Positions 10,398 through 62,087 of a stretch of DNA of 64,000 bases are shown one piece after another (the stretch's first letter is position 1; every line of letters begins with the position of its first letter). Where the stretch lies: positions 62,001 to 126,000 of the forward strand of contig NZ_SSWX01000011.1 in NCBI RefSeq assembly GCF_004803635.1, in the 5' to 3' direction. The notes under the pieces are model-generated. The model did not search any database. It had not been told where the DNA came from and was given only the letters and a program-made list of their open reading frames with translations. The position numbers and the translations under genes were made by a program. The DNA is from Lampropedia aestuarii (GTDB lineage Bacteria; Pseudomonadota; Gammaproteobacteria; Burkholderiales; Burkholderiaceae_C).

Positions 10398-10425
10398 GAT
10401 CGGTATCCTTTGTTGCTGGGGCAGC

Positions 10426-11862: not shown

Positions 11863-11913
11863 GGGTTCTCCAAAAGTTAGCGCTGCCCACACATGCCAAC
11901 GCCTCGGTGGCGA

Positions 11914-11947
11914 AGTGTAGAAACTACTTTTGACAGGATCGTGACAA
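11914..11947 (-). promoter_or_regulatory. PHO box and -10 element of the alkaline phosphatase operon
   Basis: On the minus strand the 18-bp site TTGTCAC-GATC-CTGTCAA (11930-11947) matches the PhoB consensus of two 7-bp repeats with a 4-bp spacer in nearly every conserved position. TACACT (11914-11919) follows after 10 bp, the spacing known for PhoB-activated promoters. The alkaline phosphatase ATG lies 52 bp further on. Confidence 0.8.
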
Positions 11948-12239
11948 GAAATAAAAACTGCTGGCAGCAGCCTGATGCCTTGCGCGAACTGGCTCTACTG
12001 GGCGCAATCAAGCCGCCTGCCACCGTGCGCGTGCAAAAAACCGAGCACCCTCACCAGTTCCAGGCACCAGCGATCTGGCAACACACAAAGAGACACCCAC
12101 AACGTCAGGGAAGCTTTGCAGGCTCAAAGCCACCGTTTGAGAGTCTGTTTTCCCAGCTGCGCTACACTTTGGCAGCCTGTCTGGGCACCCTCCTGATCAC
12201 CTCCAACTGCGAACCGGTCACCGGTCTCTTGCTTTGACC
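11948..12239. other. Intergenic region between divergent phosphatase and transglycosylase genes
   Basis: No convincing gene; the open frames here lack start signals and recognisable features. A promoter for the plus-strand lipoprotein gene is expected, but I could not assign one with confidence. Confidence 0.4.
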
Positions 12240-12875
12240 ATGCCCAACACCAGGCTTTCCACTTCCCCCCAGCGTACGCCACTTCTCTGGCTACTGCTTT
12301 GCCTGGCCGCGCTTCTCAGCGGCTGCAGTACAGCGCCGCCGCGCAATCCAGAGGATGTCTGCGCTATTTTTCAGCAATACCCCAGCTGGCACCAAGCTGC
12401 CTTGAAAACCCAAATCGAATGGGGTGCGCCGGTGCAGGTGCCAATGGCCATCATCTACCAAGAATCGTCTTTTCGTTCGGATGCCGTGCCGCCCAAGCGC
12501 TATCTGCTGGGCTTTATTCCCTGGGGCCGTATCAGCACCGCTTATGGTTATTCGCAGGCCCTGGACAGCACCTGGGGGCAGTACAAGCAAGAGACCGGCA
12601 AAAGCTTTGTCAAACGCAGCGATTTTGCCGACTCCATCGATTTCATTGGCTGGTATATGAGCAAGAGTCGCCAGGTCAATGGCACGGCCATGTCAGATGC
12701 CTATGGCCAGTATTTGAATTACCACGAAGGCTGGACCGGCTATCGACGCCAGAGTTATCTGAGCAAATCTTGGTTACCGCCCGTTGCCAGAAAAGTCCAA
12801 GAAAGGTCCCAGCGCTACGCACAGCAATATGCGCAGTGCCGCGATTCCTTGCCCAAACGTGGCTGGTTCTGGTAG
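12240..12875 (+). CDS. Lytic transglycosylase-like (SLT-fold) lipoprotein
   Basis: A 211-residue lipoprotein. Seen: signal with LLSGC (C29), then VPMAIIYQESSFRSDAV, with a Glu at the position of the catalytic acid of SLT lytic transglycosylases (ESSF motif), followed by TAYGYSQALDSTW, matching the AYGLMQ..T.. motif, and a late YLNYHEGWTGY block. Such enzymes cleave the glycan strands of peptidoglycan, here from the inner face of the outer membrane. Start chosen at the ATG at 12240 rather than the TTG two codons earlier. It is transcribed alone and converges with the TSUP permease gene. Confidence 0.8.
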   Translation: MPNTRLSTSPQRTPLLWLLLCLAALLSGCSTAPPRNPEDVCAIFQQYPSWHQAALKTQIEWGAPVQVPMAIIYQESSFRSDAVPPKRYLLGFIPWGRISTAYGYSQALDSTWGQYKQETGKSFVKRSDFADSIDFIGWYMSKSRQVNGTAMSDAYGQYLNYHEGWTGYRRQSYLSKSWLPPVARKVQERSQRYAQQYAQCRDSLPKRGWFW

Positions 12876-12927
12876 CCGATCAAGCGCAACGCAAGGCAGG
12901 CCCAGGTGCGCGTGCACTGCCCCCTTG

Positions 12928-13674
12928 TCAGTGCAACAGCAAAGGCCACACAGCCGCAATCAACATGGTGATGCCCGATGCGGTCAAAAGCCCCAGCACA
13001 CATTGCTTGAAACGGCGCTCGCTCAGACCTTTATACAGTTTGCCGCCCATTAGACTGGGAATCAGAATGGCAGGTGCGACCATCGCATACGTCAACCAGA
13101 CCTCGGCGGTCACCAGGCCCGTTGCGATATAGCTGGCAGTCGTTACCAGCAACAAACTCAGGTTGAAGTTTTGCAATACAGCGCGTTGCGCATCTTTTTC
13201 CATGCCAGTCAGCGTGCACCACAGCGAAGGCAAAACGCCCGTCATGCCGCCTAAACCGCCCATCACCCCGCCGAACAAACCGACCAAGGCATCAGCCCAA
13301 CGCGGCCGGTAGGTGATGCGCGGCAGCAGGGCGGAAAACATCATCAGCGGGCAGACCACCACTAAAAACAGCCCCAGCAGCAGCTTGAACCATTGCATAT
13401 CTAGCTGTGGCAGCAGATAAATACCCAAAGGCAAACCGAGCAATCCACCCAAGATGAAAGGCGCCAGTGCGCAGGCATTGAAACCACGGCGCACCGTGAC
13501 TGCGGCAATCAATTGGCCTTGCACTGCCCCCAACACCGCCAAGGCGGCGGCGGCCTGCGGCTCAAGTATCCAGACCCAAAAAGACATCGCGACCATGCCA
13601 AAACCAAAGCCCGCGATGCCTTGCACCAGGCCTGCGGCCATTGCTCCCAAGACCACAATCCACCACGCATCCAT
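12928..13674 (-). CDS. TauE/SafE (TSUP) family membrane permease
   Basis: A 248-residue integral membrane protein with about seven to eight hydrophobic helices and the two-fold repeat typical of the TauE/SafE family. The signatures are GIAGFGFGMVAM in the first half and GVMGGLGGMTGVLPSLWCTLTG in the second. Family members export sulfite, sulfoacetate or other small organosulfur/carboxylate anions; the substrate here is unknown. Start ATG has AGGAGG at good spacing. Confidence 0.85.
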   Translation of the reverse strand: MDAWWIVVLGAMAAGLVQGIAGFGFGMVAMSFWVWILEPQAAAALAVLGAVQGQLIAAVTVRRGFNACALAPFILGGLLGLPLGIYLLPQLDMQWFKLLLGLFLVVVCPLMMFSALLPRITYRPRWADALVGLFGGVMGGLGGMTGVLPSLWCTLTGMEKDAQRAVLQNFNLSLLLVTTASYIATGLVTAEVWLTYAMVAPAILIPSLMGGKLYKGLSERRFKQCVLGLLTASGITMLIAAVWPLLLH

Positions 13675-48047: not shown

Positions 48048-49625
48048 TCAGCCCTCTCGCAGCTTGTATTTGAGGATTTTGCCCGTGGCATTGCGCGGCA
48101 GCGCGTCAACAATGCGCAAGTGCTTGGGAATTTTGTAACGCGCCAAATGCAAGCTGGCAAACTCGCGCAATGCTTCCAACTCCAGTTCAGCACCGGGCTT
48201 GAGTGCGACCACGGCCACCACGGCCTCGCCCCATTGCGGATCGGGCACGCCAATCACCGCCACTTCGGACACCGCAGGGTGGCCAAACAGCACACTCTCA
48301 ACTTCCGCCGGGTAGACGTTTTCGCCGCCGGTGATGACCATGTCTTTGACGCGGTCGCAAATGTAGTAGAAGCCCTGCTCGTCAAAATAGCCGACATCGC
48401 CGGTGCGAAACCAGTGCTGGCCATCAATCGCTGCCTGCGTCGCCTCGGCCTGGTTCCAGTAGCCACGCGTGATATTCATGCCGCGCACACAGACCTCACC
48501 GCGCTCCTGGGCCACGGTCACCGGCTGCCCTGCACTGTCCATGATGCAGACTTCGGTCAACAGCGGAGGCACACCAACCGAGCCGATCTTGCGGCTCGAC
48601 CATTCATTGGACAAGGCGGTGGCCATCGCCGCCGTTTCGGTCAGGCCATAGCCTTGCTGCACCAAAATGCCGCGCTCGGCCAGCAAATGCAGCAAGGGCT
48701 CTGGGCACGGTGCGCCACCGCACATCACATAGCGCAGCGTGCTGGTATCTGCAGCGGCAAAATCGGCGTGCTGGGTCATGAACAACAGCATCGCCGGCAC
48801 GGCAAACAAGGTGGTGACGCGGTACTGCGCAATATCACGCAAAGCCGCAGCCGGATCGAAGCTGCGGTGCAAGACCATGTGCGCGCCCTTGAGGAAATTC
48901 GTCAGCGCCAGCACATTCAGAGCCCCGATGTGGAACACCGGCGCGCTGGTCAGCAAAACGTCGTCAGGCCGCACGTCCAGCATCACCAATTCGTTCACAT
49001 GGTTCCACCAGAAGTTGCCCACAGTCAGCATCGCGCCCTTGGGCTTGCCGGTCGTGCCCGAGGTGTACATGATGGCGGCCACATCGTCCTGGTGCAGCGC
49101 CACCGCCTGCGCCACCGGTGTGCTGCAGGCCATGGCCTGCGCCAGATCAGGCCAGCGTGCCGCATCACTGGTCTGGCCATGCGCGCACCAATAGCGCTGG
49201 CAGACCAGACGCTCGCGCACCGGGTCCAGCACAGCCAGGTGCTCGGCATCGGCCAGCAGCGTGTGCACGCCCGCATCGTTCAGGATGTACTCGAATTCCG
49301 GCCCAGTAAGGCGAAAATTCAAAGGCACAAAAATCGCACCCAGTTTGGAGCAGGCAAACAAAGCCACGAAAAACATCGGGTGGTTAAACCCCAGATAGGC
49401 CACACGGCTGCCTTTGCCAATGCCACCGGATTGCAAGACCCCCGCCAGCTGGTCGATCTGCAGCAGCATGTCGGCGTAGCTCAAGGTGTGCCCGGCAAAG
49501 GTGATGGCCGGGCGCTGGCCATCGCGCGCAGCGCGTTCGGTAAACCATTGGCCCATGCTGATTCTGGGCGCAGGCGCGCCCACGCCCCCAAACCCATCGG
49601 CTGGCAGCGACTGTGTGGTGCTCAT
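48048..49625 (-). CDS. Acyl-CoA synthetase (AMP-binding ligase)
   Basis: A 525-residue ligase forming acyl-CoA from acid, ATP and CoA. Seen: P-loop-like MYTSGTTGKPKGAML, FAVPAMLLF, QGYGLTETAAMATAL, the TGDVGYFDEQGF hinge region and catalytic Lys in NATGKILKYKLRE. Medium/long or branched-chain acid is likely. It is the last gene of a ten-kilobase minus-strand operon (58 bp after the enoyl-CoA hydratase) and probably activates the substrate of that pathway. Confidence 0.93.
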   Translation of the reverse strand: MSTTQSLPADGFGGVGAPAPRISMGQWFTERAARDGQRPAITFAGHTLSYADMLLQIDQLAGVLQSGGIGKGSRVAYLGFNHPMFFVALFACSKLGAIFVPLNFRLTGPEFEYILNDAGVHTLLADAEHLAVLDPVRERLVCQRYWCAHGQTSDAARWPDLAQAMACSTPVAQAVALHQDDVAAIMYTSGTTGKPKGAMLTVGNFWWNHVNELVMLDVRPDDVLLTSAPVFHIGALNVLALTNFLKGAHMVLHRSFDPAAALRDIAQYRVTTLFAVPAMLLFMTQHADFAAADTSTLRYVMCGGAPCPEPLLHLLAERGILVQQGYGLTETAAMATALSNEWSSRKIGSVGVPPLLTEVCIMDSAGQPVTVAQERGEVCVRGMNITRGYWNQAEATQAAIDGQHWFRTGDVGYFDEQGFYYICDRVKDMVITGGENVYPAEVESVLFGHPAVSEVAVIGVPDPQWGEAVVAVVALKPGAELELEALREFASLHLARYKIPKHLRIVDALPRNATGKILKYKLREG

Positions 49626-49683: not shown

Positions 49684-50463
49684 TTAACGGCCAGTCCAGA
49701 CGGGCTTGCGCCGCTCGTTGAATGCCGCCAGTCCCTCCTTGGCATCCTCGGTCATCGCCAGCAAGGCGATCTGGCTCTCGGTGTAGGCAATCGCCTGGTC
49801 AAATGACATGGCCTCGATTGCTCGCATCGCGTATTTGCCGCGCCGAATGGCTGTTGGCGACTTGTCACTCAAGCGGCCGAGCAACCAGTCGACTTTGGCA
49901 TCCAGCGCGTCGGCTGGCACAACGTGGTTGAGCAAGCCCCACTGCAAGGCCTCTTGCGCGCTCAAAGGCTCGCCGGTCAGCGCCCATTCGCGCATGATGC
50001 GCCGGGGCACCAGCTCTTGCAGCAGGCTCAGGACCTGCATCGGAAACACCCCGACCTTGACCTCAGGCAGGCCCAGCACGACATGCTCGGCCGCCACGGC
50101 CAGATCGGCCATGCACAGCAAGCCCATGCCACCGGCCATGCACGCGCCATTGAGCCGCGCCACAATAGGCAAAGTGGCGTTGTGCGCATCGCGCATCAGA
50201 TCCGCATAATCCACGCTGGGTTTGGCAAAGTCAAAACTGAACCCCTTGCCGGGCTGCAAATCGCCGCCGGCGCAAAATGCTTTATCGCCAGCGCCGGTCA
50301 ACACAATGGCACGAACCTCGTGGTCGGCATGGGCCTGGCGCAAGCCCTCGCGCATCAGCGCGATCACACCAGCGTGCAAGGCATTGCGCTTGTCAGGGCG
50401 GTTGATGGTGATCCAGAATGCGCTGCCGCGCTTGTCCAACAAGACTTCAGGGGTATCGCTCAT
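49684..50463 (-). CDS. Enoyl-CoA hydratase/isomerase family protein
   Basis: A 259-residue crotonase-fold protein. Seen: INRPDKRNALHAGVI, VLTGAGDKAFCAGGDLQPGKG (oxyanion hole), and NGACMAGGMGLLCMADLAVAAEHVVLGLPEVKVGVFP. In the position of the first catalytic Glu the segment MQVLSLLQELVP is unusual; the second Glu (PEVKVG) is present. In a carboxylase-containing pathway it would hydrate the carboxylated enoyl-CoA, like AtuE or LiuC. It lies 25 bp downstream of the carboxylase alpha gene. Confidence 0.92.
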   Translation of the reverse strand: MSDTPEVLLDKRGSAFWITINRPDKRNALHAGVIALMREGLRQAHADHEVRAIVLTGAGDKAFCAGGDLQPGKGFSFDFAKPSVDYADLMRDAHNATLPIVARLNGACMAGGMGLLCMADLAVAAEHVVLGLPEVKVGVFPMQVLSLLQELVPRRIMREWALTGEPLSAQEALQWGLLNHVVPADALDAKVDWLLGRLSDKSPTAIRRGKYAMRAIEAMSFDQAIAYTESQIALLAMTEDAKEGLAAFNERRKPVWTGR

Positions 50464-50488
50464 CAGGTGTCTCCTTATAGGGATGCGG

Positions 50489-52474
50489 TCAACTGACAGC
50501 CGCGGCCTCAATCTCGGCCAGCACACGGCGGGCCGTGACCTGCTCACCCACGCCCACGCTGAGGGTGGCGACGCGGCCCGCAACAGCAGCCAGGTGCACA
50601 TGCTCCATCTTCATGGCCTCCAAGGTGACCAGCGGCTGGCCAGCCTCGACCTGCTCGCCCTCGGCCACCAGCACGGCCACCACGCGGCCATTCATCGACG
50701 CACGCACCTTGCCGTCGCCAGCGCTCTCACCCGCACGCTCGGTGGCGCTTCGGGTCAAATCACGCACCGCCAGTGGCTGGCCGGCATAGTGCAGGTACAG
50801 CTGCTGGCCTTGGCGCGCGTAGGCCGCGCGCTCGACCACGCCATCGAGCAAGACCCGCACGCCATGCGGGGCCAGCTCCAGCCACTCAATCTGGTGCTGC
50901 TGGCCTTGCGACACGACCGTATAGCGCTGTGCGGCCGTTTGGGTCAACTGCACGGTCTGGCGCTGGCCACCGGCCTCCAAGACCAAGCTCACTGGCAGGC
51001 GGTGGGCCAGGCGGCGCAGCAAGGGCGCCACCGGCTCGACGGCCGTGGTTTCAAACAGCAAGGCCGCTGCCAATGCCAGCGCACGCTGCTGGGCGGCCTC
51101 ATCGCGCTGCAGCAGGCTGGCCAACTGCTCGCCCACAAACGCGGTGCTCGCCTGGCCTGCGGCAAACACCGAATCACGCAGGCAAGCACTCAAAAACACC
51201 TGATTGGTCGTCACCCCCAGGGCCACGGTCTCACGCAAGCCTTGCAACAAACGGCGCCTGGCCTCGTCGCGGTTGGTGCCGTGGGCAATGATTTTGGCCA
51301 CCATCGAGTCGTAAAACGGCGGGATCTCTGCGCCGCTGAACAGCGCGTGTTCGACCCGCACCCCACCCGGCTCACGCCACAGTTGCAGGCGGCCGCTTTG
51401 CGGCATAAAACCGGCATCGACGTCTTCCGCGCACAGGCGCACTTCAATCGCATGGCCGTGAAAACGCACATCGGCTTGCTGCAGCGGCAAGGGCTCACCA
51501 GCGGCCACGCGCAGCTGCAACTCCACCAGATCCAGGCCAGTGATGGCCTCGGTCACCGGGTGCTCAACCTGCAAGCGGGTGTTCATCTCCATGAAGTAGT
51601 ACTGGCCTTGGCTGTCGAGCAAAAACTCCAAGGTACCTGCGCCTTCGTAGCCAATCGCTTTGACCGCGGCCACGGCGGTGGCGCCCATGCGCTCGCGCAA
51701 GGCCGCATCCACGGCTGGCGACGGTGCCTCTTCGACCACTTTTTGGTGGCGGCGCTGCACCGAGCAATCGCGCTCGCCCAGGTGGATGGCATGGCCGTAA
51801 CGGTCGGCAAAGACCTGGATTTCAATATGGCGCGGCTGTACTATGGCCCGCTCCAGAATCACCTCGGCATCGCCAAAAGCGTTCAGCGCCTCGGACTGCG
51901 CGCTGCGCAGCAAGTCGGGGAATTCGCTGGCGCTGCTCACCAGGCGCATGCCGCGCCCGCCGCCGCCTGCTGTGGCCTTGATCATCACCGGAAAGCCAAT
52001 GCGCTCGGCCTCAGCCAGCAAGCGCTGCGCGCTTTGGTCTGCACCCTGGTAGCCGGGGATGCAGGGCACGCCCGCATCCATCATCAGTTGCTTGGCGCCG
52101 GCCTTGTGGCCCATTGCAACAATCGACTCTGGTGAGGGGCCGATAAAAACCAGCCCGGCATCGCGGCAAGCGCGGGCAAAGTCCTGGTTTTCGGCCAGGA
52201 AGCCATAGCCTGGGTGGATGGCATCGGCACCGACTTGGCGCGCCGCGTCAATCACCGCGTCAATGCACAAATAGCTTTGCGCTGGCAAAGGCTCGCCAAT
52301 GCAGACGGCCTGGTCGGCCTCTTGCACATGGCGCGCATGCTGGTCAGCCGTCGAGTACACGGCCACTGTCTGGTAGCCCAGCGCCCGGGCTGAACGGATC
52401 ACGCGCAGCGCAATCTCACCCCGGTTGGCGATCAGAATTTTGGTAAATGGTGTGGCTTGGGTCATGGTGCTCAA
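50489..52474 (-). CDS. Acyl-CoA carboxylase alpha subunit (biotin carboxylase + biotin carrier)
   Basis: A 661-residue subunit of a methylcrotonyl/geranyl/propionyl-CoA-type carboxylase. Seen: biotin carboxylase domain with ILIANRGEIALRVIR, HPGYGFLAEN, the ATP-grasp GGGGRGMRLV, MNTRLQVEHPVTE, a BT-like linker, and the biotinyl Lys622 in LEAMKMEH. Together with the beta subunit encoded two genes upstream it adds CO2 to an acyl-CoA. Its start overlaps the stop of the acyl-CoA dehydrogenase gene (ATGA). The closest pathway roles are AtuF and LiuD. Confidence 0.95.
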   Translation of the reverse strand: MSTMTQATPFTKILIANRGEIALRVIRSARALGYQTVAVYSTADQHARHVQEADQAVCIGEPLPAQSYLCIDAVIDAARQVGADAIHPGYGFLAENQDFARACRDAGLVFIGPSPESIVAMGHKAGAKQLMMDAGVPCIPGYQGADQSAQRLLAEAERIGFPVMIKATAGGGGRGMRLVSSASEFPDLLRSAQSEALNAFGDAEVILERAIVQPRHIEIQVFADRYGHAIHLGERDCSVQRRHQKVVEEAPSPAVDAALRERMGATAVAAVKAIGYEGAGTLEFLLDSQGQYYFMEMNTRLQVEHPVTEAITGLDLVELQLRVAAGEPLPLQQADVRFHGHAIEVRLCAEDVDAGFMPQSGRLQLWREPGGVRVEHALFSGAEIPPFYDSMVAKIIAHGTNRDEARRRLLQGLRETVALGVTTNQVFLSACLRDSVFAAGQASTAFVGEQLASLLQRDEAAQQRALALAAALLFETTAVEPVAPLLRRLAHRLPVSLVLEAGGQRQTVQLTQTAAQRYTVVSQGQQHQIEWLELAPHGVRVLLDGVVERAAYARQGQQLYLHYAGQPLAVRDLTRSATERAGESAGDGKVRASMNGRVVAVLVAEGEQVEAGQPLVTLEAMKMEHVHLAAVAGRVATLSVGVGEQVTARRVLAEIEAAAVS

Positions 52475-53628
52475 GGGGTGTTCTTAGGGAAGATGCCCAT
52501 GTTTTTGGACAGGATTTGCAGCATCACTTCGTCCGCGCCGCCGCCAATCGAAGTCAGACGCATGTCGCGGTACAGGCGCGAGATCAGGCTGTCTTTGACA
52601 TAGCCCATGCCGCCCCAATACTGCAGGCAGCTGTCGGTCACCAGGCGCGCCAAGCGTCCGACTTTGAACTTCGCCACCGTGGCCAGATAGGTTGCATCTT
52701 CGCCGCGCACCACCATCTCCACGCCCTTCCAGTTCAGCGCGCGCACGGCCTCGACCTCGGCTTGCAACTCGGCGAGCTTGAAATACACGACTTGCTGGTC
52801 CAGTAGCGGCTTGCCAAACACTTGCCTCTCTCGCGTGTAGCCGATGGTGATGTCGATCGCGCGTTGGGCAAACGCGCAGGTGTTCAGCGCCCCCCATAGG
52901 CGCTCAAGCTGAAACTGCTCCATCTGGTAGATAAAGCCATGGCCCTCTTGGCCAATGCGGTAGCGCTGCGGCACGCGCACATCGTCAAAGAACAACTGCG
53001 CTGTGTCCGAGCTGTCCATGCCAATCTTGCGCAGCTTTTTGGCCACTTCTACGCCCTTGGTTTTCATCGGCACCACAATCAGCGACTTGTTCTTGTGCGC
53101 ACTGCCTTCGGAGGTATTGGCCAGCACGCAACAAAAATCAGCCTGCGTGCCATTGGTGGTCCACATTTTTCCGCCGTTGATGATGTAGTCGTCGCCGTCT
53201 TTGCGCGCCGTCGTGCGGATCGAGGCCACATCCGAACCACTGCCCACCTCGGACACCCCCAGGCAGCCGACGTACTCGCCCGCAATCGCAGGCGCTAAAA
53301 ATTCAGCGCGCAGCTCGGCGCTGCCGCGATGCGCCAAGGCAGGTGTGCACATATCGGTTTGCACGCCAATGGCCATCGGAATGCCGCCGCAATTGATCTG
53401 CGCCAGCTCTTCGGCCAGCACGGCTGCATACGAGTAGTCAAGCCCCATGCCGCCGTCTTCAACAGGCTTATTCAAGCCCAGCAAACCCAGCTGGCCCATT
53501 TGCGCAAAGACCTGGTGGGCGGGAAAGATTTCAGCCTCTTCCCACTCATCCACAAAAGGGTTGATTTGTTCGGCAATCCAACGGCGAATGGTCGCGCGCA
53601 GTTGTTCATGTTCAGTGGTTAATTGCAT
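52471..53628 (-). CDS. Acyl-CoA dehydrogenase
   Basis: A 385-residue FAD-dependent dehydrogenase introducing the alpha,beta double bond. Seen: LGVSEVGSGSDVASIRTTARKDGDDYIINGGKMWTTNG (FAD/substrate region), RQVFGKPLLDQQ, and the C-terminal QYWGGMGYVKDS.. RLYRD. The residue at the usual GGxGYxxE base position is Asp, a conservative change seen in some citronellyl/isovaleryl relatives. It lies between carboxylase beta and alpha, as atuD does between atuC and atuF-type genes. Confidence 0.94.
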   Translation of the reverse strand: MQLTTEHEQLRATIRRWIAEQINPFVDEWEEAEIFPAHQVFAQMGQLGLLGLNKPVEDGGMGLDYSYAAVLAEELAQINCGGIPMAIGVQTDMCTPALAHRGSAELRAEFLAPAIAGEYVGCLGVSEVGSGSDVASIRTTARKDGDDYIINGGKMWTTNGTQADFCCVLANTSEGSAHKNKSLIVVPMKTKGVEVAKKLRKIGMDSSDTAQLFFDDVRVPQRYRIGQEGHGFIYQMEQFQLERLWGALNTCAFAQRAIDITIGYTRERQVFGKPLLDQQVVYFKLAELQAEVEAVRALNWKGVEMVVRGEDATYLATVAKFKVGRLARLVTDSCLQYWGGMGYVKDSLISRLYRDMRLTSIGGGADEVMLQILSKNMGIFPKNTP

Positions 53629-53649: not shown

Positions 53650-55269
53650 TTAAGGACGTGCGACCGAGAACTGCATCGCTTGCGGCGTGCGAGCCGCTTC
53701 TTCACGACAGATTGCCAGCACATTGGCCAGCACGGCGCGTGTATCACGCGGGTCAATGACGCCGTCATCGAGCAACTGGGCGCTGGTTGTGAACACGCTC
53801 ATCTGGCTGTCAAAGCGTTCGATGATGTTGCGCTTGAGTGCCTCGATCTTGGCCTCATCGACCTCGCCTTTGCGGCGCATTGCCGCCTCGGTGACGATGG
53901 CCATGGTCTGTGCGGCCTGCTCGCCCCCCATCACCGCCGTTTTGGCGTTGGGCCACGAGAAGCAAAAGCGCGGATGAAAGCCTCTCCCGCACATGCCATA
54001 GTTGCCCGCACCGAACGAGGCACCGCAATAAATCGTGATCTGCGGCACCGTGGCGTTGGTGACGGCCTGGATCATCTTCGAGCCATGTTTGATGATGCCG
54101 CCCTCTTCATAGGCGCGCCCCACCATGAAGCCGGTGGTGTTGTTCAAATACAGAATCGGTGTGCGCGACTGGCAGCAGGCCTGGATGAAATGCGTGGCCT
54201 TGGTCGCGCCAGCCGGGTCAATCGGGCCGTTGTTGGTGATCACGCCGACCGGCCAGCCTTCAATTTTCAGGTGGCCGCAGACCGTGGCGCTGCCGTAGTT
54301 TTCGCCAAACTCCAGAAATTCGGAGTCATCGGCAATGCGCGCGATCACCTCTTTCATATCGACTGGGCGCTTGTGGTCGCTGGGCATGATGCCCAGCAGC
54401 TCTTCGGCGTCATAGCGCGGCGGTAAAAAATGGCGCGGTGCGGTGCTGGCCGACTCACGGCCCCAGTCGATCTGCGCCAGCACCTCGCGGGCAATGCGCA
54501 AGGCATCGCGGTCATCCTCGGCCAAATAGTCACCCAGGCCAGAAATGCTCGCATGCATGGCCGCCCCGCCAAGCTCTTCCTCGGTCGCGATCTCGCCGGT
54601 TGCAGCTTTGAGCAACGGCGGGCCAGCCAGAAAGGCCCGCGAGCGCCCACGCACCAAGATAATGTAGTCCGACAAACCAGTCTGGTAGGCGCCTCCGGCA
54701 GTGGATGAGCCATGCGTGACTGTCACCACCGGCAGCCCTGCAGCCGAGAGGCGCGCGAGGTTGCGAAACGAACTGCCACCATGCACAAAGTCTTCAACAC
54801 GGTAGGCCATCAGGTTCGCGCCTGCGCTCTCGACCAGTTGCACATAAGGCAGCTTGTTCTCCAGTGCCAGCTCCTGTGCGCGCAGAATTTTGTTCAGGCC
54901 CATCGGCTGCAGTGCGCCAGCATCAATGCCCGAATCCGAGGCCAGCACCATGCAGCGCACGCCTGAGACGCAGCCAATGCCAGCGATCACGCCGCCTCCG
55001 GGCACGCTTTTGTCCAGATCCGGATTGTCCAGCCCCAGCCCCGCCAGGGTTGACAGCTCCATGAACGGTGCGCCCGGATCAAGCAGCAGCGACAAGCGCT
55101 CACGCGGCAGCATTTGCCCGCGTTTTTCAAAACGTTCGCGCGAGGCGGCTGATTTTTGCTGGGTGCGCTCCTCGTACATGCGCACGCGTGCCAGCAAGGC
55201 TTGCATGCTGTCACGGTTGCCCTGGAAGGCCTCGCTACTAACCGACAGGTTGGACTCGATGTATGTCAT
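53650..55269 (-). CDS. Acyl-CoA carboxylase beta subunit (carboxyltransferase)
   Basis: A 539-residue carboxyltransferase of the MCC/GCC/PCC-beta family. Seen: RERLSLLLDPGAPFMELS, the N-lobe LPYVQLVESAGANL, GSSTAGGAYQTGLSDYIILVRG, and the C-lobe TPILYLNNTTGFMVG and CGASFGAGNYGMCGRGF, with MGGEQAAQTM. These point to a methylcrotonyl- or geranyl-CoA type rather than acetyl-CoA. Start at the ATG giving MTYIESNLSV; it lacks a good ribosome-binding site and is preceded by four 10-bp repeats. Confidence 0.94.
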   Translation of the reverse strand: MTYIESNLSVSSEAFQGNRDSMQALLARVRMYEERTQQKSAASRERFEKRGQMLPRERLSLLLDPGAPFMELSTLAGLGLDNPDLDKSVPGGGVIAGIGCVSGVRCMVLASDSGIDAGALQPMGLNKILRAQELALENKLPYVQLVESAGANLMAYRVEDFVHGGSSFRNLARLSAAGLPVVTVTHGSSTAGGAYQTGLSDYIILVRGRSRAFLAGPPLLKAATGEIATEEELGGAAMHASISGLGDYLAEDDRDALRIAREVLAQIDWGRESASTAPRHFLPPRYDAEELLGIMPSDHKRPVDMKEVIARIADDSEFLEFGENYGSATVCGHLKIEGWPVGVITNNGPIDPAGATKATHFIQACCQSRTPILYLNNTTGFMVGRAYEEGGIIKHGSKMIQAVTNATVPQITIYCGASFGAGNYGMCGRGFHPRFCFSWPNAKTAVMGGEQAAQTMAIVTEAAMRRKGEVDEAKIEALKRNIIERFDSQMSVFTTSAQLLDDGVIDPRDTRAVLANVLAICREEAARTPQAMQFSVARP

Positions 55270-55429: not shown

Positions 55430-56329
55430 TCAGCGGCGGAACAAGCGCCACTTATCGAGCAGCGCGCAAGGCTGGTAGGACTGTTTGGTCTGGCGGAAAT
55501 TGGCCAGGCCCAGGTCCTGCTCAAAATTGAGCCAGGCCAGATCGGCCGGACCGTGCAGACACAGATGCTGGAACATGTATTGCGCCAGGCCTTTGTAGCG
55601 GCTGCGGCTCTTGGCAAAGCGCACGGCGTACACACCAGCGGCCAGCGACTCGGCCAGCACAAAACCGACCGGCTCGCCTTCAATGCAATAACCATAGCCC
55701 CAGAGGCCTAAAGCCTGTGCCTGCTGCAAGGCTTCCAAGCAAGGCTGCTCGTCGGCAGCGCCTGCGGCTTTGCCTTTGTCCTGCATCCAGCCAGCCAGCA
55801 CGGCCTGTGCCTGGCCTGCCCAGTGCGCGCTGTAAGGCACGGCCTCTACGGCATGCTGGCGCAGCAGCTGCCGCACCAGATTGCGCTTTTTGCCCAGGAC
55901 GCTGCCACGGTAATAGCGAAACTGGTCTGCCGGATACAGGTAGTCAGAATCGTCCCGCTGGGCACGCCAGTGGTACTTGTTGGCATCGAGCTGCTGCACG
56001 AGCTGTGCTGGCAGCGGGTACAGGCATTGGTGTTCATCCAGCAAGGCATCTATGACGCCTGGCGGTGCCTGGCTGAGCCGGAACAAGGGCATGGCATGGC
56101 GCTGGCCATCGTAGGTCAAGCCGCTGACCACGGGCCATGCGCCGGCTCGGTAGCGGTACGCATGCTCACGCCGAAACAGCCACAAATTGGCGAATGTGTA
56201 TTCGGCCAGGCACTGCACCCCCCAATCGGCTGTGACAGCCGCGATCAGCTTTCTCAGCTCAGCTGCGTGCGCCAGCACCAATGTCTGGGGCAAGGTCTGA
56301 GAAAGCGCTGCGGCGCGCCTGTGAGCCAC
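55430..56329 (-). CDS. DUF2156 (GNAT-like, lysylphosphatidylglycerol-synthase C-domain-like) protein
   Basis: A 299-residue soluble protein with the DUF2156 pattern: EYTFANLWLFRREHAYRYR, LYPADQFRYYRGSVLGKKRNLVRQLLRQH, GLWGYGYCIEGEPVGFVLAE, and the end LNFEQDLGLANFRQTKQSYQP. The fold is a double GNAT domain, related to the transferase part of MprF. Substrate unknown. Within the catabolic operon, 9 bp after the TIGR03084-type gene, which suggests an accessory acyl- or aminoacyl-transfer role, though the link is inference. Confidence 0.83.
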   Translation of the reverse strand: MAHRRAAALSQTLPQTLVLAHAAELRKLIAAVTADWGVQCLAEYTFANLWLFRREHAYRYRAGAWPVVSGLTYDGQRHAMPLFRLSQAPPGVIDALLDEHQCLYPLPAQLVQQLDANKYHWRAQRDDSDYLYPADQFRYYRGSVLGKKRNLVRQLLRQHAVEAVPYSAHWAGQAQAVLAGWMQDKGKAAGAADEQPCLEALQQAQALGLWGYGYCIEGEPVGFVLAESLAAGVYAVRFAKSRSRYKGLAQYMFQHLCLHGPADLAWLNFEQDLGLANFRQTKQSYQPCALLDKWRLFRR

Positions 56330-56338
56330 ACAGGCCTT

Positions 56339-57136
56339 TCAGGCGCGCTTGCGCACACCGGGCGCCGGTCCATCCACGGGTGGGCCGGCAAAACACTGGG
56401 CCATGCTGCTCCAGGCCTGGGCCGCTGCGCCCTGCCACTGCAAGCCGGTATCATCGCGGTGGCGGCGCTGCGTGACCAGCAGGCAAAAGTCCTGCGCACT
56501 GCCGCGCAACCAATCGGTCTCAGAGGGCTCTCCCCAAGTCCACAGCGTGCCATCCGGTGCTTGCAATTCGATGTACGGCACGGTTTCAGGGACTGGCAAT
56601 TTCCGGTTCACAAAGGTCCAGCCAAAGGTGCTGACGCCGATGTGCGCAATCGCCCGCAGACGGTGGCTGGCAGGGCGATCTAACTGCATCACATCCCAGA
56701 TGTCCTGACCGTGCGCCCAGGTCTCCATCAAGCGCGCCGTGGCAAATGACTTCGCGCTCATACTGGGCCCGTACCAGTTCAAGCGCGCTTTGGGATCTTG
56801 CTGTGCCAATGCGGCCACCAGGGTTTCAAAATTGCTCTGCCAGGTCGCCAGCAATGCGGGTCCGTCAAGTCCGGCAAAATGGTCGCGGGCGATGGCGCTG
56901 ATTTCTTTGCCTGTGGCCAGCACCTTGGCCAAGGCTTTCGCCTCGGCGGTAAACTCCTCGGGGGTAGTCACCGACTGCAAGGCCGTCTGGTCAAAGTAGC
57001 ACAGATGCGCGACTTCATCCCAGGGCGTCCAGCCATAAAAATCGCTGCGCCGCTGCCAATCGGCCGCAGACAATGTGGCGCAGACACGCGCCAAATCGCG
57101 GTATTCACCCAGTAAATCGTTGCAGGTCGTTTGCAT
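56339..57136 (-). CDS. TIGR03084-type DinB-fold metal-binding protein
   Basis: A 265-residue protein of the TIGR03084 group, related to DinB and the N-domain of mycothiol-dependent maleylpyruvate isomerase. Seen: GWTPWDEVAHLCYFDQTAL and RLMETWAHGQDIWDVMQLDRP, with His residues at the usual metal positions, and the end CFAGPPVDGPAPGVR that typifies the group. Such genes are often found beside AtuA and acyl-CoA carboxylase genes, as here. The reaction is unknown; thiol- or CoA-dependent isomerisation or hydrolysis is possible. Confidence 0.85.
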   Translation of the reverse strand: MQTTCNDLLGEYRDLARVCATLSAADWQRRSDFYGWTPWDEVAHLCYFDQTALQSVTTPEEFTAEAKALAKVLATGKEISAIARDHFAGLDGPALLATWQSNFETLVAALAQQDPKARLNWYGPSMSAKSFATARLMETWAHGQDIWDVMQLDRPASHRLRAIAHIGVSTFGWTFVNRKLPVPETVPYIELQAPDGTLWTWGEPSETDWLRGSAQDFCLLVTQRRHRDDTGLQWQGAAAQAWSSMAQCFAGPPVDGPAPGVRKRA

Positions 57137-57144
57137 GTGTGTCC

Positions 57145-57166
57145 CCTTAGAACGTGTTTACGCTCT
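57145..57166. repeat. Copy of a short dispersed repeat (TTAGAACGTGTTTACGCTC)
   Basis: Fills most of the 29-bp gap between the acyl-CoA dehydrogenase and TIGR03084-type genes. More divergent than the other copies but keeps TTAGA..GTGTTTACG.TC, like the first of the two at 63687-63728. Confidence 0.4.
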
Positions 57167-58338
57167 TACAAACCAAGCTGCCTAGCGGCCAGGTCCTTCA
57201 TGATCTCTTCCGAGCCACCGCCAATCATCATCACCTTGACTTCCCGGTAAATACGCTCGCTGACCGTGCCACGCATAAAGCCCATGCCACCCAAAATTTG
57301 CACTGCCTGGTCGGCGCACAGCTGCATGGCCTGGGTCGCCAACACCTTGGCCATGCAGGTGCGGGCCACCAATTGATTCTGGTCACCGACGCGCTCGCGC
57401 AGCCGCCAGGCCAGGTCATAAATCAGGCTGCGCGCTGCATCAATGCGCGCCAGCATGTCCATCAGCTTGTGGCGGATGACTTGCCGCTCTGAGAGGCTGA
57501 TGCCAAAGGTCTTGCGCTCACGCGCCCAGGCCCACGCTTCTTCCAGGCAGACTTGCGCATAGACACAGGCCTGCGCAGCCATGCCCAAGCGCTCGGAGTT
57601 GAAGTTGTTCATGAATACTTTGAAGCCCTGGTTTTCCTGGCCAATCAGGTTGGCCACCGGCACGCGCACCTGGTCAAAATGCAACTGCGCGGTGTCTGAG
57701 GCCCACCAGCCCATTTTTTTGAGTTCTGTGCGCGACAGGCCTGCGGCATCGCCTTCGACCAGCAATGCAGAAATGCCGGCTGCGCCTTTGCTGGCCGGGT
57801 CCGTGCGCACGGCCACGGTGATCACATCGGCGCGCATGCCAGAGGTGATGAAGACCTTCTCACCATTGACCACATAGGCATCGCCATCGCGCACTGCCGT
57901 GGTTTTCAGCGCTGCGACATCGGAGCCGCCAGAGGGCTCGGTCACGGCCAATGCGGCAATGCGCTCGCCTCGCAGCACCGCCGGGATGATGCGCTCTTTC
58001 AACTCGGCACTGCCATGGTGCGCGACCGGCGGCAAGCCAATGCTGTGCGACATCAGCGAGGCGGCAACGCCGCCAGCGCCGCAGCGCGCCAGCTCTTCCA
58101 TCACAATCAGCTGGTAGAAGATATCGGCTGGCGTGCCGCCATAGATTTCGTCATAGCCGATGCCTAACAGTCCCAATTCAGCGGCTTTGGTGTAGAGCGC
58201 GCGCGGGAAGCTGCAGGCCTCGTCCCACTGCGAGGCAAACGGCGTGATCTCGCGGCTGACAAAAGCGCGCACACTGGCGCGAAACGCCGCGTGCTCGGGC
58301 GTGAAGTAATGGGGTGCAGAAGAGACATCAAACAACAT
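57166..58338 (-). CDS. Acyl-CoA dehydrogenase
   Basis: A ~390-residue acyl-CoA dehydrogenase. Seen: ALAVTEPSGGSDVAALKTTAVRDGDAYVVNGEKVFITSG, FNSERLGMAAQA, RKTFGISLSERQ, and QILGGMGFMRGTVSERIYREVKVMMIGGGSEEIM. The C-terminal pattern is common in betaproteobacterial enzymes whose base lies elsewhere in the chain. Start preferred at MLFDVSSAPHYF; an in-frame ATG 15 codons earlier is possible. Third gene type of this family in the cluster, suggesting several dehydrogenation steps or chain lengths. Confidence 0.94.
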   Translation of the reverse strand: MLFDVSSAPHYFTPEHAAFRASVRAFVSREITPFASQWDEACSFPRALYTKAAELGLLGIGYDEIYGGTPADIFYQLIVMEELARCGAGGVAASLMSHSIGLPPVAHHGSAELKERIIPAVLRGERIAALAVTEPSGGSDVAALKTTAVRDGDAYVVNGEKVFITSGMRADVITVAVRTDPASKGAAGISALLVEGDAAGLSRTELKKMGWWASDTAQLHFDQVRVPVANLIGQENQGFKVFMNNFNSERLGMAAQACVYAQVCLEEAWAWARERKTFGISLSERQVIRHKLMDMLARIDAARSLIYDLAWRLRERVGDQNQLVARTCMAKVLATQAMQLCADQAVQILGGMGFMRGTVSERIYREVKVMMIGGGSEEIMKDLAARQLGL

Positions 58339-58418: not shown

Positions 58419-59120
58419 TCAACTGGCTGATGGCCGCTGCAGTCCCTGTAGCAAACGCAGCCCATCGATATGGGCTGCAGCCTCAACAGGTTGGCTGAGC
58501 GCCTGCCATGGGACCGTGCCCAGTAACGGAATCCCTGCATCACCGCGCAGCGGCCTGCAGCCCAACTGCACCCAGCCTGCGACTCGAATTCCCTGGGCGC
58601 GGCAGCGCGTGAGCAAGGCACAGAACGCGTGCCATGCAGCCTCACTGTCTTCGCAGACTATGACCACTGGCAGACGCATCCACCTGGCCAGTTCGCGCAA
58701 TGACAGCTCTGGTGCCAGCAGCGCCTCAGGCTCACCAACGCCATCCACAACCACGGCATCGCTCCAGGTCGCCAGCGCTTGGTAGCTGTCCAGCACATCG
58801 CGCAGCGCCACGGGACGCGGCGGCGACGCGCTGGGGTCGGGTGCAGGCACTGTGCACAAGGCCGCAGCGGGAAACGCAAACGAGCTGTGCGCTTTGAGTT
58901 GCGCGACACGCTCGCTGTACCAGCGGCCGTTGTGCCACTGTGCATCGCAGGCCACCGGCATCAGCGCGGTGGTACGCAAACCTTGCTGGCGCAAGCAGTG
59001 AATCAGTGCCAAGGCCACCCAGTGCACCCCTTGCCCGGCCGCCCCCAACACAAACAAGGAAGCGCAGGCAGGAGCGGCAAGGCGGTCGGCCACAGCGGCA
59101 GTGGATGGTGTCACGGGCAT
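58419..59120 (-). CDS. Dethiobiotin synthetase-like protein lacking catalytic residues (pseudoenzyme)
   Basis: A 233-residue protein with the order of BioD motifs. The Walker A of BioD (GTDTEVGKT) reads GAAGQGVHW (26-34), so the phosphate-binding Lys and Thr are lost. The MKPVA segment reads LMPVA (Lys to Met54). Later, VVVDGVGEP replaces VVEGVGG and RLPVVIVCEDSEAAW, GIRVAGWVQLG and PLLGTVPW match the conserved scaffold. The fold is therefore probably kept, but ATP-dependent catalysis is not. It lies at the head of an operon that encodes a biotin-dependent carboxylase. Function unknown. Confidence 0.72.
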   Translation of the reverse strand: MPVTPSTAAVADRLAAPACASLFVLGAAGQGVHWVALALIHCLRQQGLRTTALMPVACDAQWHNGRWYSERVAQLKAHSSFAFPAAALCTVPAPDPSASPPRPVALRDVLDSYQALATWSDAVVVDGVGEPEALLAPELSLRELARWMRLPVVIVCEDSEAAWHAFCALLTRCRAQGIRVAGWVQLGCRPLRGDAGIPLLGTVPWQALSQPVEAAAHIDGLRLLQGLQRPSAS

Positions 59121-59330: not shown

Positions 59331-61127
59331 ATGAGCAGTACGAATGGCAAAGTGGTACGTATCGGTGGCGCATCGGGTTTTTGGGGCGACAGCATGCTGG
59401 GTGCACCCCAGCTGGTGAACTCCGGCCAGATTGACTACCTGGTGTTTGACTATCTGGCAGAGACCACGATGGCGATTCTGGCAGCGGCCAGACGCAAAAA
59501 ACCGGAGATGGGTTATGCGACCGACTTTGTCGACATTGCCATGAAAGCCGTGTTGCCCGAGGTCATGCGCCAGGGCATCAAGGTCGTGGCCAATGCCGGC
59601 GGCATCAACCCGCAAGGCTGCGCCGATGCGCTGCAGACACTGGCTGGGTCACTGGGCCTGCAACCACGCATTGCCGTGGTGCTGGGCGACAACATCAGCG
59701 CGCAGATGCCACGCTTGCGCGCTGCCGGTGTGCGCGACATGTTCACAGACAAGGCGCTGCCAGAGCAGATTCTCAGCGCCAACGCTTATCTGGGCGGTTT
59801 TGCGATTGCCCAGGCCTTGGCCAGTGGTGCCGATATTGTCATTACTGGCCGGGGCGTAGACAGTGCGGCGACGCTGGGTCCGCTGATCCACGAATTCGGC
59901 TGGGCGCCAGCGGACTATGACCGCCTATCAGGCGGCAGCCTGGCAGGCCACATCATCGAATGCGGCTGCCAGGCCACCGGCGGCCTGCACACCGATTGGC
60001 TCAGCGTGCCCGACTGGCCCAATATCGGCTATCCAATTGTTGAATGCCTGGCCGATGGCAGCTTTACAGTCACCAAACCGACTGGCACAGGCGGCCTGAT
60101 CGCACGCGCAGCCGTGGCCGAGCAACTGCTGTATGAAATTGGCGACCCAGGCGCGTATCTGCTGCCGGATGTGACCTGTGATTTTCGCTCAGTCAAGATT
60201 GAACAGCTCAGCCCCGAGCGCGTGCGTGTCAGCGGCGCGCTGGGGCGTGCTCCAACCGATAGCTACAAGGTCTCGGCCACGCAGCTCGATGGCTGGCGTT
60301 GTGCAGGCTCGATGGTCATCATCGGCAGGGATGCGGCAGCCAAGGCGCAGCGCACCGGCGAGGCGGTGATCGCCCGCACCAGTGCGATTCTCAAAACACT
60401 AGGCTACGCTCCCTACACCAGTGCCAATATCGCCCTGCTCGGCGCAGAAACCCTGTATGGCCCGCATGCCCGCACCAGCGCTTCGCGGGAGGTCATGGTG
60501 CGGATCTCGGTGACCCACCCGGACAAACAGGCGCTAGAGATTTTCGCGCGGGAGATTGCCCCTTCGGGCACCTCATGGTCGCCAGGCACCACCGGCCCCA
60601 GCAGCGGCCGCCCCAGTGTGTCGCCCAATATCAAGCCCTTGTCCTTGCTGATACCCAAAGCCGATGTGCCGGTTGAAGTGGTCATTGATGGCGTCAGCCA
60701 GAGCGTCTCGGTCGCATCAGGCCATGGCAGCGCCACAGCGCCTGAGCCGTTCATCCCGGCGCCCTGGCCTGACCGCGCTGAATCGACGGTCGACGTACCG
60801 CTGGCGCAATTGGCCTGGGCGCGCAGTGGCGACAAGGGCGATATCTCCAATATCGGCGTGGTTGCTCGGGATGCGGCCTGTCTGCCATTGCTGTGGCAGC
60901 AACTGACGCCCGAGGCAGTCCACGCGTATTTTGCACACTTGGTGCGGGGCCCGGTTGCGCGTTTTTATCTGCCCGGTATCGCCGCAATAAACATCACGCT
61001 GGAGCAAGCACTGGACGGTGGTGGCCCAGCATCCAGCCGCATGGACCCACTGGGCAAGGGCATGGCCCAAATGCTGCTGGATATGCCCATTGCGGTGCCT
61101 GCCACGCTGGCCAAAAGCCTGGCTTGA
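59331..61127 (+). CDS. AtuA-family protein (acyclic terpene utilization, DUF1446)
   Basis: A 598-residue AtuA-family protein. Seen: VVRIGGASGFWGDSMLGAPQLV, DYLAETTMAILA, VVANAGGINPQGCADAL, TGRGVDSAATLGPLIHEFGW, GSLAGHIIECGCQATGG, and near the end WARSGDKGDISNIGVVARD. The biochemical role of AtuA is not settled; in Pseudomonas it is required for citronellol/geraniol catabolism. Start has a perfect AAGGAGG. It is divergent from the BioD-like gene (210-bp gap) and converges on the AraC gene. Confidence 0.93.
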   Translation: MSSTNGKVVRIGGASGFWGDSMLGAPQLVNSGQIDYLVFDYLAETTMAILAAARRKKPEMGYATDFVDIAMKAVLPEVMRQGIKVVANAGGINPQGCADALQTLAGSLGLQPRIAVVLGDNISAQMPRLRAAGVRDMFTDKALPEQILSANAYLGGFAIAQALASGADIVITGRGVDSAATLGPLIHEFGWAPADYDRLSGGSLAGHIIECGCQATGGLHTDWLSVPDWPNIGYPIVECLADGSFTVTKPTGTGGLIARAAVAEQLLYEIGDPGAYLLPDVTCDFRSVKIEQLSPERVRVSGALGRAPTDSYKVSATQLDGWRCAGSMVIIGRDAAAKAQRTGEAVIARTSAILKTLGYAPYTSANIALLGAETLYGPHARTSASREVMVRISVTHPDKQALEIFAREIAPSGTSWSPGTTGPSSGRPSVSPNIKPLSLLIPKADVPVEVVIDGVSQSVSVASGHGSATAPEPFIPAPWPDRAESTVDVPLAQLAWARSGDKGDISNIGVVARDAACLPLLWQQLTPEAVHAYFAHLVRGPVARFYLPGIAAINITLEQALDGGGPASSRMDPLGKGMAQMLLDMPIAVPATLAKSLA

Positions 61128-61238: not shown

Positions 61239-62087
61239 TCAACGCATGTAGTGAGGCGTCACCGCCGCGCCAATCACACGCAGTTTGCGCGAACCGGCAA
61301 AAATATCCTTGGGCTTGAGGCCATAAACCTGCCTAATCGAATGGCTGAAATGCGTGGAGTCAGGGTAGCCTGCTTCCAAGGCCACATCGGTCAAACTGCT
61401 GTTCTGATCGACCACGTAGTGCAGCAAGCTGCGCGCGCGCTTCCAGGTGCGAAAGGTGCGAAACGAGGTGCCGACCTCGCTCTTGAACAGGTGCAAAAAG
61501 CGCGAAAAAGACAAATGCACTTGCGCCGCGCAGTCTTGCGCCTGCGCCTGGCCAGAGGGGTTCGTGCGAATGCGCTCGACCACCTGGGCAATGCGCTTGT
61601 CCAGCTGCCGCTTGGGCAACTCCATGCCAAACAGCAACTGGTCAAAGTCCAGCATGGGCGCCTGGGATTGCTGGCCGTTGCGCAGCAATGCCTGATGGGC
61701 CTGGTGCGCGCGGCTGCGAAAGCCCTCTTGCTCAACCAAGCCGCCGCTGTGTTGCAGCCAGTCAGGCAAGGCCTGCATGTCAACCGACTCGGGCTCAAGC
61801 ATCGTTGCGGCAATATGGCGCGTCTCACAAGCCACGCGGTGCACGGTGTGCGGCGGCACAACAAACACATGGCCTTCCTGCCAGGCTTGCGAGCCGATTT
61901 GCACACGCACTACCCCATCCAGCGCCACATACACCATCGTCGCGCCGTAGTTGCGGGTCGATGGCGTGCCGAGCAAGCCGGCATAAAACACACGGTCAGG
62001 GGTTATCCACATCACACGCTCGGCGCTGGTCACACGTTTGGCACCGATCACGTATGGCCGAATTGCATCAATAGGGTCAATACGCAT
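61239..62087 (-). CDS. AraC-family transcriptional regulator
   Basis: A 282-residue AraC regulator: N-terminal cupin-like sensing domain (VMWITPDRVFYAGLLG, WQEGHVFVVPPHTVHRV) and a C-terminal double helix-turn-helix (AAQVHLSFSRFLHLFKSEVG and LTDVALEAGYPDSTHFSHSIRQVYG). It lies beside the AtuA-family gene, so it probably controls this catabolic cluster; Pseudomonas atu genes instead use a TetR regulator (AtuR). The effector is probably an acyl-CoA, acid or alcohol of the pathway. Confidence 0.92.
   Translation of the reverse strand: MRIDPIDAIRPYVIGAKRVTSAERVMWITPDRVFYAGLLGTPSTRNYGATMVYVALDGVVRVQIGSQAWQEGHVFVVPPHTVHRVACETRHIAATMLEPESVDMQALPDWLQHSGGLVEQEGFRSRAHQAHQALLRNGQQSQAPMLDFDQLLFGMELPKRQLDKRIAQVVERIRTNPSGQAQAQDCAAQVHLSFSRFLHLFKSEVGTSFRTFRTWKRARSLLHYVVDQNSSLTDVALEAGYPDSTHFSHSIRQVYGLKPKDIFAGSRKLRVIGAAVTPHYMR

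Follow-up and report, generated by a model that had tools for sequence, protein, structure and literature searches.

A BioD-like protein without the dethiobiotin synthetase active site in a geranyl-CoA-carboxylase-type locus of Lampropedia aestuarii, and its relatives in Burkholderiales

The analyzed window, which is the whole stretch of 64,000 nucleotides from Lampropedia aestuarii, carries a BioD-like gene whose product is very probably not a dethiobiotin synthetase. We read it, with a probability of roughly 0.6, as a BioD-derived pseudoenzyme which is kept for an accessory role in its locus. Nine members of this group were counted together with the window protein, and all eight relatives, two of which were seen in part, belong to other Burkholderiales. 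A dead copy which is kept at the same place in a few related bacteria has probably another job there.

The open reading frame was found where the original prediction had placed it, with the same strand, ATG and length (Table 1), and all four motifs quoted for the dethiobiotin-synthetase scaffold (PVA, VVVDGVG, AGWV and PLLGTVP) are present in the protein. Pfam AAA_26 matches it at E=1.5e-9 with 38.4 bits, above the gathering score of 27, and the bioD model TIGR00347 gives 26.1 bits, below the curated cut-off of 83.3. Weak profile matches to phosphate acetyltransferase (21.3 bits) and cobyric acid synthase (12.7 bits) lie far below the respective cut-offs of 418 and 273. The nearest solved structure by sequence search is a dethiobiotin synthetase (1a82_A, E 0.0025), and the profile of the members searched against the PDB gave an E-value of 1.9e-37, all 9 matches being dethiobiotin synthetases. 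The AF2 model, for which a seven-row alignment was the input, has a mean pLDDT of 83.6 and a pTM of 0.83. Its top Foldseek match is the dethiobiotin synthetase 1dbs (E 5.8e-13, 22% identity), and VIA-align against dethiobiotin synthetase gave Z 25.7 and 2.3 A over 201 residues, so the scaffold appears to be kept in the predicted model. The likeness to BioD (1dbs/1dae) covers the fold over most of the chain and the shared G, P, D, LP and W landmarks, and the protein is 30% identical to the BioD of its own genome by blastp. A chance or non-coding frame at this place was rejected, as the AAA_26 match is above the gathering score and syntenic relatives exist.

The difference from BioD lies in the active site, where the loss of the Walker A Lys/Thr and of the substrate Lys had been claimed and was confirmed. 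The protein reads GAAGQGVHW against GTDTGVGKT in the other BioD of the genome, Lys15-Thr16 of the P-loop being replaced by Val-His in the alignment, and Lys37 is Met. In mycobacterial dethiobiotin synthetase, according to the part of PMC8659263 consulted, the P-loop is Gly8-Thr16, the DAPA site lies between two subunits and inhibitors form a salt bridge with Lys37. The 60 ordinary BioDs with which the changes were compared had been selected by a P-loop pattern, which makes the conservation of their P-loop columns a given; columns 37, 54, 115, 118, 119, 149, 150 and 153 played no part in the selection. Asp54 and Glu115, which we take to be the Mg ligands of BioD, are Arg and Asp in the window protein and are kept in 60 of the 60 ordinary BioDs. 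Leu149 and Asn153 are presumably ligand-contacting residues, and Asn175 presumably has a role in BioD as well; Asn153 is His in the window protein.

Four members lack the P-loop, namely the window protein and those of G296, Xenophilus and Ramlibacter. All four have lost the Walker A Lys/Thr, Asp54 and Asn153, and three have lost Glu115; Lys37, Leu149 and Asn153, which are kept in 60, 60 and 55 of the 60 ordinary BioDs, are changed in all four. Arg in the Asp54 column and Leu37 are each present in 4/4 of these members and 0/60 ordinary BioDs, Lys15 has become Glu in three, Gly118 is kept in all four and Gly119 in three. In this branch Glu15 (3/4) and Arg54 (4/4) may pair as a salt bridge that substitutes for bound Mg-ATP. 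Another four members (G104 and the three betaproteobacterial MAGs) retain the P-loop and Lys37, and column 54 is acidic in them; their Gly118-Gly119 is replaced by Arg-Asp, by which the EGAGG loop is lost, and Asn153 is gone. Trp119 is found in 9/9 members and Phe81 in 8/9, both in 0/60 ordinary BioDs. In the homology-first list the P-loop pattern was missed only in the proteins of the window, G296, G705 (a 3' piece) and G104, the last of which reads GTHAGVGKT, so the P-loop is there and the pattern alone missed it.

The features around the gene are collected in Table 1. It is the first gene of the minus-strand run that includes the biotin carboxylase, as had been predicted, and this run would form one transcript, going by strand and spacing. 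The term biotin-carboxylase operon was kept as to the carboxylase and refined to the geranyl-CoA carboxylase type. The carboxyltransferase matches geranyl-CoA carboxylase beta (5ikl_B) with 643 bits against 475 bits for methylcrotonyl-CoA carboxylase beta. It has Gly in the acyl pocket where the methylcrotonyl-CoA enzyme has Phe (alignment read by eye), which is the criterion that separates the two carboxylases in the part of PMC4673880 consulted, and the three-residue insertion of the methylcrotonyl-CoA enzyme appears as two residues. The divergent AtuA family protein matches PF07287 at E 2.9e-141. AtuA, both carboxylase subunits, acyl-CoA dehydrogenases and an acyl-CoA synthetase are shared with the acyclic terpene utilisation (Atu) cluster, whose gene roles were taken from the consulted part of PMC4847356; the gene list in that part names no BioD-like gene, and the regulator named is AtuR. 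The locus here has an AraC-family gene and also LPG_synthase_C and MDMPI_N domain proteins. By its gene content the operon looks built to break down terpene-like acids.

Table 1. Features of the locus in the window, in order of coordinates
Feature	Coordinates	Strand	Remarks
AMP-dependent acyl-CoA synthetase	48048..49625	-	PF00501
Enoyl-CoA hydratase-like ORF	49684..50601	-	Named by eye; true start probably internal
Biotin carboxylase (alpha) with biotinyl domain	50489..52474	-	Domain match
ACAD1, acyl-CoA dehydrogenase	52471..53628	-	Domain match
Geranyl-CoA-carboxylase-type carboxyltransferase (beta)	53650..55269	-	Start by eye; 55251 used in searches
LPG_synthase_C domain protein	55430..56329	-	PF09924
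MDMPI_N / DinB_2 domain protein	56339..57136	-	PF11716, PF12867
ACAD2, acyl-CoA dehydrogenase, next gene downstream of the BioD-like gene	57166..58338	-	Start at internal ATG, by eye against relatives
BioD-like putative pseudoenzyme, 233 aa, first gene of the putative operon	58419..59120	-	ATG at 59120
AtuA family protein, divergent from the BioD-like gene	59331..61127	+	PF07287, PF23544; start by eye
AraC-family regulator, relatives of which adjoin BioD-like genes elsewhere	61239..62087	-	Domain match

The LPG_synthase_C and MDMPI_N proteins (55430-57136) recur with the carboxylase locus in many of the relatives whose loci were read, and homologues of the enoyl-CoA hydratase-like ORF co-occur in the loci of relatives. 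We take the MDMPI_N / DinB_2 protein to be TIGR03084. Elsewhere in the window, two adjoining ORFs at 8901-11892 resemble alkaline phosphatases by eye.

The relatives were tracked by gene place as well as by sequence. ACAD2 has matches at 1e-160 in 15 of 299 family genomes, the host (G000) included, and among the other 14 ACAD2 loci, all of which were read, G296 alone carries a BioD-like gene at this position. In the genus of G296 a relative with a broken gene was found (G705), and the G104 relative came from the first family scan. When named genomes were searched with the AraC profile, 80 of 361 loci were kept, and six of the 80 had BioD-like genes: those of Xenophilus sp. Marseille-Q4582, a Ramlibacter MAG, three uncultured betaproteobacterial MAGs and an Aquabacterium MAG whose contig is the same as that of G705. 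The 95 loci compared gave 31 distinct slots upstream of ACAD2, three of them with less than 2.2 kb of upstream sequence, and a BioD-like gene was present in four of the 31, always on the same strand.

The gene order is also retained in part of these genomes. All four P-loop-less members lie directly upstream of ACAD2, and all four P-loop-keeping members come after an AraC gene, with a carbonic-anhydrase-like gene (by eye) between the two in G104. As to the carboxylase-assisting role that had also been proposed, the closest gene link of the BioD-like genes is to ACAD2 or AraC, not to the carboxylase subunits themselves. The arrangement of biotin carboxylase, ACAD1, carboxyltransferase, LPG_synthase_C, MDMPI_N, ACAD2 and BioD-like gene, with atuA divergent, recurs in G296 and Xenophilus sp. 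Marseille-Q4582, where the order from biotin carboxylase to atuA equals that of the window, bar an insert between the carboxyltransferase and LPG_synthase_C genes. The Ramlibacter MAG has the order AraC, BioD-like gene, ACAD2, and at loci L123 and L131 the earliest start of the BioD-like gene is 11 bases past the AraC stop. At L087 (1853-3974) a row of AraC (in two pieces), carbonic-anhydrase-like and BioD-like genes, the last with an intact P-loop, is cut by the contig end. L177 (G044, contig C11, about 10509-13073) has an AraC gene of this family with a carbonic-anhydrase-like gene and a second bioB behind it; the 96% identical other copy of bioB in G044 adjoins a canonical bioD on C30.

The 9 further genomes of the genus yielded no orthologue of the window protein; the three other matches obtained there carry an intact P-loop. 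The search of genome contigs with P0001 gave 87 stretches, none of which was confirmed. P0001 was scanned over 299 family and 399 order genomes; for profile A3 the scans covered 399 genomes of the family and 399 of the order. One A3 scan had G000 (277 bits), G296 (258) and G104 (235) on top, the next match being at 223 bits. In the other A3 scan G000 was again on top, followed by eight matches at 210 to 219 bits; G350, G352 and G610 are among these eight, and the other five, from which alone the P-loop status was taken, all have the P-loop. The weaker matches were read in part, by which a diverged member could be missed. The Ramlibacter protein gave no match at 1e-8 among 72,556 plasmid records.

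The grouping of the members was analyzed by trees, all of the quick kind, in which the G705 protein stands as its 3' part and the G104 protein is cut by a contig end. The nine members form one side of a branch against the 60 ordinary BioDs (SH-aLRT 97), and the P-loop-less four form a group inside them (SH-aLRT 99). The window protein stands on a very long end branch (3.26), and joins of this kind are flagged by the program as potentially false. When the P-loop-less rows were entered one at a time, each was nearest to a locus-linked member, with starred support (97) for the window and Ramlibacter rows and not for G296 or Xenophilus; with three long rows removed, the remaining six members stayed together at 97, the G104 protein being excluded from both kinds of tree. 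In pairwise BLAST the window protein matches several ordinary BioDs with up to 80.5 bits against 54 to 59 bits for the G296 member, and its top identity in the tree alignment (34%) is also to an ordinary BioD. The grouping is therefore based on the tree together with the shared residues and the gene place, and the shared changes (Trp119, Phe81 and the Arg at column 54) would be hard to get by independent decay.

The main rival of an accessory role is that the gene is a dying relic, a bioD copy without use which is drifting without function, and we consider this unlikely. The very long branches are what such drift would give, and the patchy presence (four of the 31 slots) agrees with it. So does the Aquabacterium MAG copy (G705; L080 / L125), in which the P-loop, GTDVGVGTT, and the remainder of the gene are in different frames, by mutation or assembly error. 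The codon-position GC of the window gene (0.71/0.56/0.70) has a weaker third-position skew than that of the 8 neighbours tested, which points the same way, as does the lack of another bioD match or of a bioA above cut-off in 8/9 member genomes. Against drift, the four P-loop-less copies have kept an open frame in different genomes, at the same place and strand and with shared derived residues, and a 233-codon frame stayed open by chance in just 64 of 20000 draws with the overall composition and 160 of 20000 with the position-specific composition. The confident structure model and the biotin genes still present in the host also speak against it. In the three betaproteobacterial MAG genes with intact P-loop, dN/dS is 0.11, 0.13 and 0.17 at dS 0.55 to 0.73, and on these ratios three P-loop-keeping, locus-linked members are under purifying selection.

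The biotin genes were tested in ten genomes, which are the nine with members and G044, where an AraC locus and no member was found. In the host, the BioD-like gene is on contig C3 and a canonical bioD is on C56, inside bioA-bioD-bioF; this bioD and bioA both pass the curated cut-offs, and one bioB above cut-off is on C4 with no other bio genes beside it. The host thus appears to be a biotin maker by gene content (bioA, bioD, bioB, and bioF by eye), the BioD-like gene is an extra, diverged copy, and loss of biotin synthesis is not the cause of its changes there. The real bioD had been expected elsewhere in the genome, and a genome with no other bioD had been named as evidence to the contrary, which the canonical copy answers for the host.

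Only G000 and G044, of the ten genomes, have a bioD other than a member together with a bioA above cut-off. G296 has no TIGR00347 match at 1e-5, and in the other seven member genomes the sole match is the member itself, above cut-off in G808-G810. A bioB match at 1e-30 is present in G000, G044 (two), G296, G104, G705, G806 and G807, and none was obtained at this threshold in G808, G809 and G810. Weak bioA matches below cut-off occur in all ten genomes; the best candidates of the eight other member genomes are 26 to 33% identical to the host BioA and are probably other aminotransferases. In G104 a bioF-like gene adjoins bioB. G104 is 76% complete and G705 is 91% complete with 6% contamination, and as far as the assemblies go, most members cannot serve a complete pathway. 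An extra working BioD for more biotin was rejected for the window protein, whose active site is lost, and is unlikely for most relatives, as bioA above cut-off is missing from 8/9 member genomes. At L123, L128 and L131 (G808-G810) the BioD-like genes are above the TIGR00347 cut-off with neither a bioB match at 1e-30 nor a bioA above cut-off. If the assemblies are complete, these calls are an annotation trap, and for these three MAGs a bioD call above the curated cut-off alone is no evidence of biotin synthesis.

It had also been proposed that the protein senses biotin or dethiobiotin and couples cofactor supply to the carboxylase. The descent from BioD and the place in a biotin-enzyme locus fit this idea, as do the second bioB and carbonic-anhydrase-like gene behind the related AraC gene in G044. 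The changes at Lys37, Leu149 and Asn153 in every P-loop-less member make sensing less likely, and the genomes of the other three P-loop-less members (G296, G806 and G807), although bioB is present, gave neither another bioD match nor a bioA above cut-off. A sensor is accordingly improbable, and of the original prediction the pseudoenzyme by sequence, the head position in a carboxylase operon and the canonical bioD elsewhere were retained, while sensing finds little support at best. It is still less probable that the window protein remains an enzyme whose active site has been rebuilt for a carboxylase or kinase reaction. Such an enzyme could be suggested from the members with P-loop and Lys37, which persist under purifying selection in genomes without a bioA above cut-off or a bioB match; this persistence suggests a changed substrate for the P-loop-keeping branch, but the losses at the Walker A motif, Asp54 and Asn153 throughout the window branch, and at Glu115 in most of it, argue against an enzyme there.

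For the pseudoenzyme with an accessory role, the following course of events may be proposed. In an ancestral member of Burkholderiales, a locus of the geranyl-CoA-carboxylase type under AraC regulation would have acquired a bioD copy, and two branches would then have diverged. From one of them the EGAGG loop and Asn153 would have disappeared, with the P-loop retained; the window branch would have lost the nucleotide site, Lys37 and Asn153 and gained Arg for Asp54 while the predicted fold stayed. The product would have been retained in a non-catalytic, accessory capacity and, like BioD, would probably be a dimer. An order in which the substrate side was lost first and the P-loop later was dropped, as Gly118 and mostly Gly119 remain in the P-loop-less members, so the loss of the EGAGG loop belongs to the other branch. 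We tentatively suggest that the accessory protein has a binding partner encoded in its own locus, most likely ACAD2 or the AraC regulator, which it tunes or stabilises. The sister branch, three of whose four members are called BioD by the curated model, may assist the same locus in an ATP-using way, in bacteria unable to make biotin.

A second BioD beside the canonical one is known in E. coli as BioD2/YnfK, which keeps the P-loop. The window protein resembles it as a BioD paralogue beside a canonical BioD and is set apart by lacking the P-loop. The window gene also differs from bioD in that it lies in a terpene-type locus and not with bioA/bioF. No description of a BioD-like gene in a geranyl-CoA-carboxylase-type locus was found among the literature matches listed from the PMC open subset, and only this is claimed.

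The full proposal is that BioD was recruited to a biotin-carboxylase catabolic locus as a non-catalytic regulatory or assembly protein, the nucleotide site being dismantled in the window branch, and the sister branch having the P-loop kept and the substrate side changed. In this complete form it is speculative and somewhat unlikely. If it is right, an enzyme of cofactor synthesis would have found new use as a non-catalytic partner of a pathway which needs that very cofactor, and two differently altered branches of it would still be present.
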